This document shows positions 235 to 64,000 of a stretch of 64,000 bases of DNA, piece by piece. Positions within the stretch are counted from its first letter, which is position 1; every line of letters starts with the position of its first letter. The position numbers and the translations under genes are program-made. The stretch is taken from contig VXSC01000027.1 of the NCBI GenBank assembly GCA_009838195.1, positions 1 to 64,000 on the forward strand. Direction: 5' to 3'. The notes beneath the pieces were generated by a model, which was not told the origin of the DNA, searched no databases, and saw only the letters and a program-made list of their open reading frames with translations. This stretch comes from Rhodothermaceae bacterium. Lineage in GTDB: Bacteria > Bacteroidota > Rhodothermia > Rhodothermales > Bin80.

Positions 235-3200
235 ATGATTATCGCAAGAGAGAACAATACAGATAAGGGTTCATTCTTCAAATGTGTAGGAGGTCCCAAT
301 ACCATACGTAGCCTAATGGCAAGTATCTTGGTGGTACTGGGGTCAGTGGGTGCGTTTACGCCTGTACAGGCACAGATTGAGGTGCTGCACAAGACCGTCG
401 CGATTGATCCTAGTACGCAGCTTCCGCATTCGGCTAATTCGCTACATCCCAGTGCTTTTCATACAGTGGCCGTAGACTTGCACGCCGAAAATGTCAAGAG
501 CTCCGTAGGAGGAGTATCAGGGGACGGAGTGTGCCGAGCTAGACTGGTGCCTGATTCCAATGAACCCTGCACGATCGCAATGAAAATGTACCCTTCGTCA
601 GACAGTTCGGAATTTGTGGACATTCAGTACGACGAGGGAAAAGTATTCGAGGCGGAGGACGGTAACTCTCTGTTCTTAGGTATATCAGCTCAATAAAGGT
701 TGTCTACCCAGTTCATTCCCAAGACGTCTTTAGGGGATGATCGCGAGGTGCGGATTGATCGTATCTGGCTGGCACCTTACTTTAACAATCAATTTTTGAC
801 CACGGCCCTGCCTCCTTCTGCCCCCCGGGATCTGGCGGTCTACATATATTCGGATAATGAAGGCGAACCGGGAGAGGTCCTGTTTTCAAAGGTGATTGAA
901 GATCCACGAGATTTTGCTAGTGTGACGAGCCTTGAGCTGGATTTCTTTGAATTGGACCTTTCAAACGAAGAGATCGGTGTCTTGCCGGATACCATCCACA
1001 TTGCGTATGGGAATGCAGGAAGCGACAACAATGTCCTAGTCCTAGGAGCGGCGCCCTACACAAAAGAAAACGTGTCGTACAGATACACGGGTTCATCATG
1101 GAAAGCACTGTGGAGTATCACTATTCAGGACGGGAGATCGTTTAACGAGACGGTGATCCCCATACGTGCTCGTTTCCGACTTGATAGCACGGATGGTTCC
1201 TTGCAATTTGCAGAGCAGGTCAAAGATCAATCTTTCCTTGAGGGACAGGCCATTACACCATTGATTTTGCCGGAAGCCACGGGAGGTGAATCATCGATCA
1301 GTTACTCCCTAGTGCCCGGGCTGCCCGCTGGATTGAGTTTTGACTCTTCAACTCGAACCATTCGTGGAACGCCGACGGAAGTTACTGTTACGCCTGTAGC
1401 CTACACATACACGGCAACTGATGCAGGCGGGAACACCGTCAGTTTGCAGTTTACGATTGAAATTAATTCATCGTCGGGTGGAGTAGTAGACATTCAGTAC
1501 GACGAAGGAGAGGCATTCACGACAGATGACGGTACAGATCTATTTGCAAGTACACCGGCTGAATCACAAATGTCCACACGGTTCATCCCCAAGGTATCTT
1601 CGGAGGACAATCGAGAGGTACGGATTGATCGTATTTGGCTGGCGCCTTACTTTGATAATCAGTTTGGGAACACGAACTTGCCTTCTTCTGCTCCCCGAGA
1701 CCTGACCGTCTACATATATTCGGATCAAGGAGGTAGACCGGGGGAGGTCTTGTTTTCAAAGGTAATTGACGATCCAAGAGCCTTTGCCGGTGTGACGAGT
1801 CTTGAGCTGGACTTCTTTGAATTGGACCTTTCAAACGAAGGGATCGGTGTCTTGCCGGATACCATTCACATTGCATACGGGAATGCAGGAAGCGACGACA
1901 ATCTTCTGTCTATAGGAGCAGCGCGCTACGCTACGGAAAACGTGTCGCACCTATACCTGAATGGTCGGTGGAGAGAATTCTGGACCATAACTCTTAGTGA
2001 CGGGAGCACGTATAACGAGGCGATGATCCCTATACGTGCTCGTTTCCGACTCGGTAGCATGGAGGGTTCTTTGCAATTTGTGCAGCAGATCAAAGATCAA
2101 TCCTTTTTGGAGGGACAGGCCATTACACCATTGATTTTGCCGGAGGCCACAGGAGGTGAATCGCCGATCAGTTACTCCCTCATGCCTGGGCTGCCCGCCG
2201 GATTGAGCTTTGACTCTTCGACCCGAACCATTCGGGGAACGCCTAAGGAAGTTATCGCTGCGCCCGTAACCTACACATACACGGCAACCGATGCAGGCGG
2301 GAATACCGCCAGTTTGCAGTTTATGATTGAAATTTATTCTATACCAGATGGCGTGGAGATCGTGGACATTCAGTACGATGAGGGAGAGGCATTTCACACA
2401 AGCAACGGGGGGCATCTGTTTCTTTTGCTGTCGTCCCCACCAATAATGTCTACTCGGTTCATCCCTAAGGCATCTCCGGACGATGATCGAGAGGTGTGGG
2501 TTGACCGTATCTGGCTGGCGCCTTACTATGACAATCAGTTTTGGAATACAGACTTGCCTTCTTCTGCGCCCCGAGATCTGACCGTCTACATATATTCGGA
2601 TGATGAGGGCGAACCGGGGGAGATCTTGTTTTCAAAGGTGGTCGACGATCCAAGAGCTTTCGCCAAGGTAACGAACTTTGATCTGGATTTCTTTGAATTG
2701 GATCTTTCAAAAGAAGGAATCGGTGTCTTGCCGGATGTTATCCATATTGCATACGGGGATGCAGGAAGCGACGACAATATTCTGTCCTTAGGACCAGCAC
2801 CCTACACGAAAGAAAACGTATCACATCTATCTTGGAATGGTAGTAGATGGATAGAACTATGGGACATAGATGTTACTACTGTAGGGGTAGGGTTTGACGA
2901 TACCGTGATTCCCATACGTGCTCGGTTTCGACTTCATGGAAGTTCTCCTGTGCAAGTCAGGCAGCAAGCGACATTGCCAGAAGCGTTCGTAGTACACGGC
3001 AATTATCCAAATCCTTTTCAGAAATCAACATACTTGCAGTTTGATCTTCCCGCGTCTGCCCGCGTGACCGTAGAGGTCATAGACATGTTAGGACGGCGGG
3101 TGTTGACGGTTCCCCCGATAGAATTAGCTGCGGGGTGGGGAAAGCAGATCGAGGTGGATGGACAATCGCTTCCCTCTGGACACTACTTGTACCGTATAGT

Positions 3201-3258
3201 GATGTACTCGGAGACGGGCAACTCAACACAAACGGGTCAATTCGTACATTTCCGGTAG
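235..3258 (+). pseudogene. Secreted tandem-repeat protein with T9SS sorting domain, interrupted by an in-frame TAA
   Basis: One reading frame spans the whole interval but is broken by TAA at 694-696. The N-terminal part has a signal peptide ending near ...PVQAQ. Three repeats of a roughly 190-residue beta-rich unit start at VDIQYDEG (616, 1486 and 2362). The first two are followed by a putative-Ig/cadherin-like module (about 1200-1470 and 2070-2335, with PAGLSFD and YTYTATDAGG). The end is a type A T9SS sorting domain with NYPNPF, DMLGRRV and GHYLYR motifs, so the product would be exported by Sec, crossed by T9SS and anchored or released at the surface. At the break, unit 1 aligns with unit 2 residue for residue, and the stop replaces one residue. 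A TTG at 700 could restart translation but would lack a signal peptide. The function of the repeat unit is unknown. I favour a recent nonsense mutation; sequencing error or readthrough is possible. Confidence 0.7.
616..2940 (+). repeat. Three in-frame tandem repeats within the T9SS protein
   Basis: Units start at 616, 1486 and 2362, giving periods of 870 and 876 bp. Each begins with VDIQYDEG and carries FIPK, DRIWLAPY, SAPRDL, VYIYSD, GVLPD and PIRARFRL landmarks. Units 1 and 2 include the Ig-like module; unit 3 lacks it and runs into the sorting domain. DNA identity is high enough that recombination between units could change the copy number. Confidence 0.85.
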
Positions 3259-61905: not shown

Positions 61906-64000
61906 ATGAGAAAAATTTTATTTGTGCTTCAAAGATGCCTGTTCTGTTGTATGGCGAGTGCTTTTTTATTCTCATCCATGGCGATGGCACAGGGCACCGC
62001 CACCTATGAGCTCACCTACACATCAACATGGACTGCCGATACACATCCCACGGGCTATCCACCCAACCCCCACTTCTCCCCGTTGATCGGGGGTACCCAT
62101 AATGATGCAGTGCAGTTTTGGAGGACAGGGGCAACTGCCAGTGACGGAATCAAGAGTATGGCAGAGCTTGGAGCCACGGGGACGCTTCGAAGTGAAATCG
62201 ACCAGGCCAAAGGGGATAATAATGCCGAGGCGATCATTAGTGGGCGTGGTTTAGGCCGTCCTCCAACCTCTACCAAAGTCACATTCGATATTCGACCTCC
62301 GTGGAATCTGGTCACCGTTACATCCATGTTGGCGCCCAGTCCAGATTGGTTTGTTGGTGTGTCAGGATTGAACCTGCTGGATGAGGACATGAACTGGATT
62401 GATACGCTTGAGGTAGACTTATTCGTCTATGATGCAGGAACAGACAGTGGATCCGATTATACCTCACCGAATCAGCCCACAAATCCACGGGAGAATATCA
62501 AGCGCATAACGGAATCTCCATTTTTGGTTGACGGAGAGGTTAAACCAGTCGGAACGTTTCGTTTTGCGTTACAGACAGTTCGGCTTCCCTCGGACGGCTA
62601 CTTCAGTGTCGATGGAACCGAGATTCTGGATGGGAGCGGTCAACCGATTGTTATGAAAGGGGTGGGGCTGGGAGGATGGCTGCTACCGGAAGGCTATATG
62701 CTGCATATCTCAACGCCACCAGGGACAACGGATGGGCCTTCCGGGATACGGAATCAGATGATTGATCTCGTCGGTGAGGCAAACACAGAGAGGTTCTTTG
62801 AGTTATTCACGGAGAAGTATGTACAGGAGAAGGATATAGAAGCAATCAAGGATTGGGGGTTTGATCATATTCGACTCCCATTCCATTATCGCCTGTTTTA
62901 TGATCCTGAAATGGACGCGTGGGATGAGGACGGTTTTGAGCTATTGGATATATTTCTTGAATGGTGCAGGAAGAATGACCTTGCGGTCCTTCTAGATATG
63001 CACGCAGTTCCAGGAGCGCAGAGTGAGGGAGGGATTGCAGACAGTGATGGGGAAGCTCGGCTTTGGACTGAACCCGACAAGTACTGGCCGCAAACCATCA
63101 AGATCTGGCGTGAAATCGCCCGTCGGTATAGCGATGATCCCATCATTATGGGGTACGATCTCATCAATGAGCCAGTCCTCCCAGAGGGAATACCTGGAAA
63201 AGACTTGGCAGATCTGTATACTCAGATCATTAACGCAGTCCAGCCGATTTCCCCCAATCATCTGTTCTTTCTTGAGGGCAATTACTGGGCTACGTCATTT
63301 GACGAGCATCTGCGGGATATTTCAAATCACAGAGACAATATTGTCTATGCATTCCATCATTACTGGAAGGGAGCGGATCAGGGAGCGATCCAGTACTTGC
63401 TCAATATGAGGAGCGAGGATCAGGTCCCGCTTTATCTGGGCGAGACAGGAGAGAATTCCAATGCCTGGTTTTATGCGATGACAAGATTGGTGGAGGAACA
63501 TAGAATTGGAATTAACTGGTGGACGCATAAAAAAATTGAGACAATTACCAGTCCCCTCAGTTCGCCGTTTGCACGGGGTTACGAGGCTGTAATTACGTAT
63601 TGGCGTAATAGGCAGGGACCTAAACCCTCCGCAGAAGCAGCAGCCCGGGGTCTTTTAGCGATGGCCCAAAATTTGGAGCTTGATTCTGCTAAAGTAAACC
63701 GAGGCCTCCTGGCCGCGCTCTTTGATCCCGAATATGGAACGAAGCAAAAGCCGTTCAAGAAGCATGAGCTTCCAGGGATCATCAATGCTGTTGACTATGA
63801 TCTGGGAAATCAAGGGGTAGCGTATAATGATACGGACGTTTGGAGAGTTGGAGAAACCACGGGCAATAGGGGCTATAATTATCGCAATGATGGGGTAGAC
63901 ATTGAGATTTCAACCGATCCCGAAGGATTCGAATACAATGTCGGGTGGACAAATCGATTTGAATGGATAGAGTATACTGTTGATATTCTGGAGGATGCAG
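61906..64000 (+). CDS. Secreted Spondin_N-GH5 glycosidase with CBM6/35-like domain (incomplete at window edge)
   Basis: At least 698 residues, running off the right edge with no stop. The signal peptide is about residues 1-28 (ending near SMAMAQ). Residues about 32-215 resemble a Spondin_N domain: TYTSTWTADTHPTGYPPNPHF, LIGGTH, GATASDGIKSMAELG, PSPDWFVGVSGLNL, DAGTDSG. About 225-560 form a GH5 cellulase-like barrel: VMKGVGLGGWLLPEG, LRLPFHY-like IRLPFHYR, LLDMHAVPGAQ, acid/base Glu in LINEPV (E422), nucleophile Glu in YLGETGEN (E513), and INWWTHKK. From about 620 a jelly-roll CBM6/35-like part (NYRNDGVDIE, YNVGWTNRFEWIEYTVD) begins. It may bind and degrade a beta-glucan. GGA about 6 nt before ATG. 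Confidence 0.83.
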   Translation, partial: MRKILFVLQRCLFCCMASAFLFSSMAMAQGTATYELTYTSTWTADTHPTGYPPNPHFSPLIGGTHNDAVQFWRTGATASDGIKSMAELGATGTLRSEIDQAKGDNNAEAIISGRGLGRPPTSTKVTFDIRPPWNLVTVTSMLAPSPDWFVGVSGLNLLDEDMNWIDTLEVDLFVYDAGTDSGSDYTSPNQPTNPRENIKRITESPFLVDGEVKPVGTFRFALQTVRLPSDGYFSVDGTEILDGSGQPIVMKGVGLGGWLLPEGYMLHISTPPGTTDGPSGIRNQMIDLVGEANTERFFELFTEKYVQEKDIEAIKDWGFDHIRLPFHYRLFYDPEMDAWDEDGFELLDIFLEWCRKNDLAVLLDMHAVPGAQSEGGIADSDGEARLWTEPDKYWPQTIKIWREIARRYSDDPIIMGYDLINEPVLPEGIPGKDLADLYTQIINAVQPISPNHLFFLEGNYWATSFDEHLRDISNHRDNIVYAFHHYWKGADQGAIQYLLNMRSEDQVPLYLGETGENSNAWFYAMTRLVEEHRIGINWWTHKKIETITSPLSSPFARGYEAVITYWRNRQGPKPSAEAAARGLLAMAQNLELDSAKVNRGLLAALFDPEYGTKQKPFKKHELPGIINAVDYDLGNQGVAYNDTDVWRVGETTGNRGYNYRNDGVDIEISTDPEGFEYNVGWTNRFEWIEYTVDILEDA

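Follow-up and report, generated by a model that had tools for sequence, protein, structure and literature searches.

A Spondin_N domain joined to a predicted GH5_46-like GH5-CBM6 enzyme with a T9SS sorting domain in one family of Rhodothermales

The Spondin_N domain has been studied almost only in animals, and in F-spondin it binds Ca2+ via D325, D354 and D358, which lie within the motifs PSPDW and DAGTD (PMC3117680). The open-access literature that we searched contained no biochemistry of any bacterial Spondin_N domain, and gave no function for it in bacteria; it offered only a mention that a pair of Spondin_N-like genes lies close to an L-amino acid oxidase in Pseudoalteromonas. Enzymes that combine GH5 and CBM6 are represented by CbGH5 of Chryseobacterium sp. 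HT1, a GH5_46-CBM6 endoglucanase and xylanase for which mutation has shown both catalytic Glu residues to be essential (PMC5812240). PULs of marine Bacteroidetes that carry a CBM6-containing GH5_46 together with GH16 have been assigned to laminarin or beta-glucan (PMC6794258). The parts of the protein described here are known; what is new is the Spondin_N head on a GH5-CBM6 body. An earlier sequence-only reading of this DNA knew of no description of the domain order, and in the same literature we likewise found no description of a Spondin_N-glycosidase architecture.

The window, by which we mean the whole 64,000-nt stretch of DNA that was analysed, corresponds to bases 1-64000 of a 131,581-base contig (C27) of genome G000. 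The gene opens with an ATG at position 61906 on the + strand, and its frame is confirmed to run from the signal peptide to the window edge without a stop. When read from the contig (locus L003, identical to the window throughout their overlap), the full gene ends with a stop at contig position 64551 and encodes a product of 881 aa. All four of its domains score above their curated Pfam cut-offs (Table 1). NCBIfam, which is independent of Pfam, places the spondin domain (NF038123) above its cut-off and the T9SS type A sorting domain (TIGR04183) at 32.3 bits, against a cut-off of 23. The region that had been read as Spondin_N, residues 30-215, thus does give a significant score, a GH5 barrel does come second in order, the boundaries proposed earlier for the domains hold, and the T9SS sorting domain that had been guessed at for the missing C-terminus is found there by both models. 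The third module had been called CBM6/35-like; a jelly roll is present, and it scores better as CBM6 than as CBM35.

Table 1. Positions of the fused gene and its features, in window coordinates unless marked otherwise
Feature	Position	Strand	Evidence or remark
Spondin_N-GH5-CBM6-T9SS protein, first 698 of 881 codons	61906..64000	+	continues to G000:C27:64551 / L003:1907-4552
Predicted Sec signal peptide, residues 1-28 (...MAMA then QG)	61906..61989	+	sequence; alignment; model helix 2-27
Spondin_N (F-spondin) domain, residues 32-204; about 28-226 including last strand	61999..62517	+	PF06468, 173.7 bits, E 6.5e-51 (curated cut-off 24); 3q13/3d34 by sequence and fold
D147 of PSPDW, predicted Ca2+ ligand (= D325 of human F-spondin)	62344..62346	+	alignment
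D176-A-G-T-D180, predicted Ca2+ ligands (= D354, D358 of human F-spondin)	62431..62445	+	alignment
GH5 (beta/alpha)8 catalytic domain, residues ~234-605 (Pfam core 303-540), GH5_46-like	62605..63720	+	PF00150, 99.7 bits, E 2.7e-28 (curated cut-off 23.5); model
E422, predicted acid/base, NEP motif	63169..63171	+	aligns with E215 of CbGH5-like L227; invariant in fusions
E513, predicted nucleophile, GETGEN motif	63442..63444	+	aligns with E312 of CbGH5-like L227; invariant in fusions
CBM6 jelly roll, start (residues 661-777; ends at contig position 64236)	63886..64000	+	PF03422, 49.3 bits, E 7.3e-13 (curated cut-off 28.9); model strands 687-779
T9SS sorting domain, residues 799-862	contig 64300-64491, outside window	+	PF18962 (Por_Secre_tail), 32.2 bits, E 1.4e-7 (curated cut-off 27)

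An AlphaFold model of the fused protein, built on 45 related sequences, has a mean pLDDT of 92.7 and a pTM of 0.81. Besides the very end of the chain, a single short stretch (782-790, ahead of the T9SS domain) is poorly defined, and the CBM6 segment is all-beta. When the model was compared with the PDB using Foldseek, the head matched mindin (3d34, TM by target 0.84-0.86) and F-spondin (3q13, 0.78) at 2.2-2.7 A. The relationship is also apparent from sequence alone, with E values of 7e-33 against human spondin-1 and 2.5e-28 against spondin-2. D147, D176 and D180 of the PSPDW and DAGTD motifs are invariant in 15/15 fusions, as is A28-Q29-G30 at the predicted signal-peptide cleavage site. Among 60 heads sampled, human spondin-1 among them, PSPDW occurs in all and DAGTD, DAGTE or DSGTD in 56. 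This invariance supports a working Ca2+ site and implies no particular ligand. Integrin binding of the mindin type was considered and rejected, as the LEV at 168-170 of the head aligns with a stretch of mindin that is not LEV, and the LEV of mindin has no aligned counterpart. The head could bind a glycan, a protein, a lipid or nothing, or could merely stabilise the enzyme.

The barrel retrieves GH5 enzymes by fold, the best match being the GH5_22 exo-xylosidase 9ku5, together with multi-domain GH5-CBM6 arabinoxylanases that include CtXyl5A. The best long sequence matches outside the window's family begin at query residue ~204-240, that is, with GH5-CBM6 and often with a T9SS tail; these headless proteins come from Bacteroidota, Ignavibacteriota, Calditrichota, Marinimicrobia and others. 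One of the relatives, L227, is a 576-aa protein with catalytic Glu at 215 and 312, so that its length and catalytic positions are those published for CbGH5 (PMC5812240), and it is 36% identical to the fused protein over 553 positions. The active-site residues R323, H366, N421, E422, H484, Y486, E513 and W539 align with L227, and the assignment of E422 and E513 as the catalytic pair is borne out by this alignment and by their invariance in the 15 fusions. Catalysis by the GH5 barrel is well supported by homology. The body is an old and widespread GH5-CBM6 enzyme; its probable placement in GH5_46 is indirect, by way of the CbGH5-like L227. An Acidobacteriota homologue (L019) with a 260-aa N-terminal extension was a candidate for a further Spondin_N fusion; the extension contains no such domain.

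A beta-glucan is our best inference for the substrate rather than a result. GH16 genes are found in all 16 genomes sampled from the window's family, and in G000 a GH16-Big-CBM6-T9SS protein (L241:7005-8861, contig C19) is a probable beta-glucanase partner. However, xylan is a further substrate of CbGH5, on which more work has been done than on any other relative. No SusC/D, GH16 or GH30 genes adjoin the fused gene; its neighbours are housekeeping genes (downstream, those for CCA tRNA nucleotidyltransferase and ribonucleotide reductase), and GH16 and SusD are on other contigs. Because the gene lies outside a PUL, its context lends no support to any one substrate.

Export of the fused protein by the T9SS, as predicted from its tail, is well supported because G000 encodes the sortase PorU (971 bits) and the SprA translocon (in a 2660-aa frame), and because the PorU model, in its sorting-domain part, is matched by more than 20 further frames of this genome. 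A T9SS sorting-domain-like match is also seen near the start of the window (2995-3234, +), within an 853-aa open frame.

The sample of the window's family comprised 16 genomes from 6 genera. The Spond_N-GH5-CBM6 fusion is single-copy in 15 of them, as stop-free frames of 870-930 aa; all 15 have the Spond_N, GH5 and CBM6 domains, and 14 have the T9SS tail. In the remaining genome (G296, 94% complete, from the window's genus) neither the head nor the GH5 body was found. A whole-protein search of 296 genomes across the phylum restricted the full architecture to the window's family, and a Spond_N search of 394 genomes found the domain almost confined to the window's order. Outside the family, no Spond_N joined to GH5 was present in the loci that were read. 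A pattern-based scan of 84,980 species, which is not exhaustive, returned the fusion only from Rhodothermales/Bacteroidetes MAGs.

A tree built from the GH5 bodies places all 15 fusions on one side of a branch (support 80, and 100 for 14 of them). Their sister is an unfused Rhodothermaceae protein, L048, which is 54% identical and in whose genome (G380) Spond_N is encoded by a gene of its own, on a different contig; in the more distant G250, head and body are likewise apart. Given a single clade of bodies and separate parts in these two genomes, the joining most simply occurred once, from parts already in the order, with Spondin_N acquired in the ancestor of the window's family. The same CCA tRNA nucleotidyltransferase gene lies downstream at 12/15 fusion loci, a constancy in keeping with vertical descent; the unfused loci have other neighbours there.

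Other proteins of the window's genus combine family-specific heads with bodies that are Calx-beta, fn3-like/DUF4397 or of no recognised kind; in some members, cadherin/Big_9 giants bear a head that is more distantly related. One paralogue in G000 (L004:8135-10777; contig C8, ~114.1-116.8 kb) is an 880-aa protein with a Spond_N head 71% identical to that of the fused protein, four Calx-beta repeats and a T9SS tail. Another (L174:8520-12496; G298:C81) is apparently interrupted within its head by a break in the frame and adjoins an intact tandem copy (L174:5328-8312). The giants (L183:7277-14041, L184:1738-7812 and L185:3590-8572, from G211 and G203) are 1,661-2,255 aa long and combine a distinct clade of Spond_N heads with cadherin/Big_9 repeats; one of them ends in an autotransporter-like domain. 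It was considered that the paralogue heads had been copied off the fused gene, and a first tree did nest them within the fusions; under a better model, an AU test did not reject the fused heads as one clade (p 0.44), so that copying may have gone in either direction.

We consider it reasonably probable that the protein is a beta-glucanase of GH5_46-CBM6 type, secreted through the T9SS, which gained Spondin_N once, in the family ancestor, and which the head and the CBM6 hold or target. Beyond the domains, export signal, conservation and history set out above, its proposed working is as follows. The signal peptide would take the protein across the inner membrane and the type IX secretion system would take it across the outer membrane, where the T9SS sortase would cut off the C-terminal domain; the enzyme would afterwards either stay anchored at the cell surface or pass into the matrix around it. 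Its barrel would then cleave a beta-linked glucan, most likely laminarin-like or a mixed beta-glucan, by a retaining mechanism using E422 and E513, while the CBM6 would hold the polysaccharide. The Ca2+-binding, C2-like Spondin_N sandwich, with almost no linker to the barrel, may hold the enzyme to a second surface, which could be the cell envelope, a biofilm or host matrix; this tethering is the weakest step. The locus had been read as a surface or matrix glucanase with an adhesive head. The first part of that description is well supported: the protein has a T9SS tail and homology to GH5_46, and its genome encodes a T9SS sortase and translocon; the adhesive head is plausible, given the conserved F-spondin Ca2+ site, although there is no counterpart of LEV.

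It is possible, though in our view unlikely, that the head has no binding role of its own and instead serves the GH5 barrel as a cap that gives it structure or stability, or as an N-terminal spacer compatible with export. In the model only a few residues lie between head (strand 216-226) and barrel (next strand 234-236), which together with high confidence along the whole chain would suggest a fixed packing. However, the unfused GH5-CBM6 relatives, at 36-55% identity, do without a head; the invariance of the Ca2+-site residues in every fusion and the similar heads on unrelated bodies in the family suggest a portable function. We think it quite improbable that the protein is a host-directed symbiosis factor whose head mimics or binds the extracellular matrix of an animal such as a sponge or coral and so brings the glycosidase to host tissue. 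The family is probably marine, and the names of several of its MAGs (CAR3, CAR4, RHO1, Plut) fit sponge and coral studies; Plut presumably refers to the coral Porites lutea. This makes host association a lead by name only and not a finding, and it is against the host-directed reading that the assignment of MAGs to hosts depends on these names. CAR3, CAR4 and RHO1 fit the reef-sponge MAGs obtained from Carteriospongia and Rhopaloeides, and the survey that sampled these sponges reported fibronectin-binding protein genes in sponge Rhodothermia (PMC8163846). Spondin_N is present in 52 of 114 genomes of the order (about half), and stand-alone Spondin_N proteins are spread throughout it, so that a recent capture of the head from an animal host is not supported, and the missing counterpart of the mindin LEV speaks against the same reading. 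The named family genomes are metagenome-assembled, and the fusion might be suspected to be an artefact of assembly or binning; the probability of this is negligible, as it is ruled out by the recurrence of the same frame in 15 genomes, two of them of 1-4 contigs (G303, G300), and by conserved neighbours, and base composition is even over all domains of the fused gene.

Returning to the glucanase with a holding or targeting head, we tentatively suggest that Spondin_N in bacteria is a portable head by which proteins exported through the T9SS attach in a Ca2+-dependent way, and which in these possibly animal-associated Rhodothermales brings a glucanase to a specific surface, be it host matrix or biofilm. 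That the family has also placed related heads on bodies of Calx-beta, fn3-like and cadherin type suggests a general module for attaching exported proteins. If true, this would be a bacterial use of an animal-matrix domain that has not previously been described. The role of a bacterial Spondin_N domain is directly testable here, because the head is fused to an enzyme with an assayable activity, is kept by nearly all genomes of the family, and is a separate gene in the nearest outgroup.

The fused protein resembles several known systems and differs from each. With the FS domains of F-spondin and mindin (3q13, 3d34) it shares the fold (TM 0.78-0.86) and the PSPDW and DAGTD motifs, but it lacks reelin_N, TSR and a mindin LEV at the aligned position, and its head is joined to an enzyme. 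Spondin_N-T9SS proteins of the same order (L190, 322 aa; L189, 356 aa) similarly have an N-terminal head and a C-terminal T9SS tail, though without a catalytic or carbohydrate-binding domain between them. CtXyl5A (GH5_34-CBM6; PDB 5g56, 2y8k), retrieved by fold, is a modular GH5-CBM6 enzyme as well, but it belongs to another GH5 subfamily, is cellulosomal and has no Spondin_N. The GH5_46-CBM6 enzymes have the same GH5-linker-CBM6 body, catalytic pair and active-site residues; those of marine laminarin-type PULs (PMC6794258) differ in gene context, the fused gene being outside any PUL. In CbGH5 the GH5 domain directly follows the signal peptide, whereas in the fused protein the body is preceded by Spondin_N and followed by a T9SS tail.
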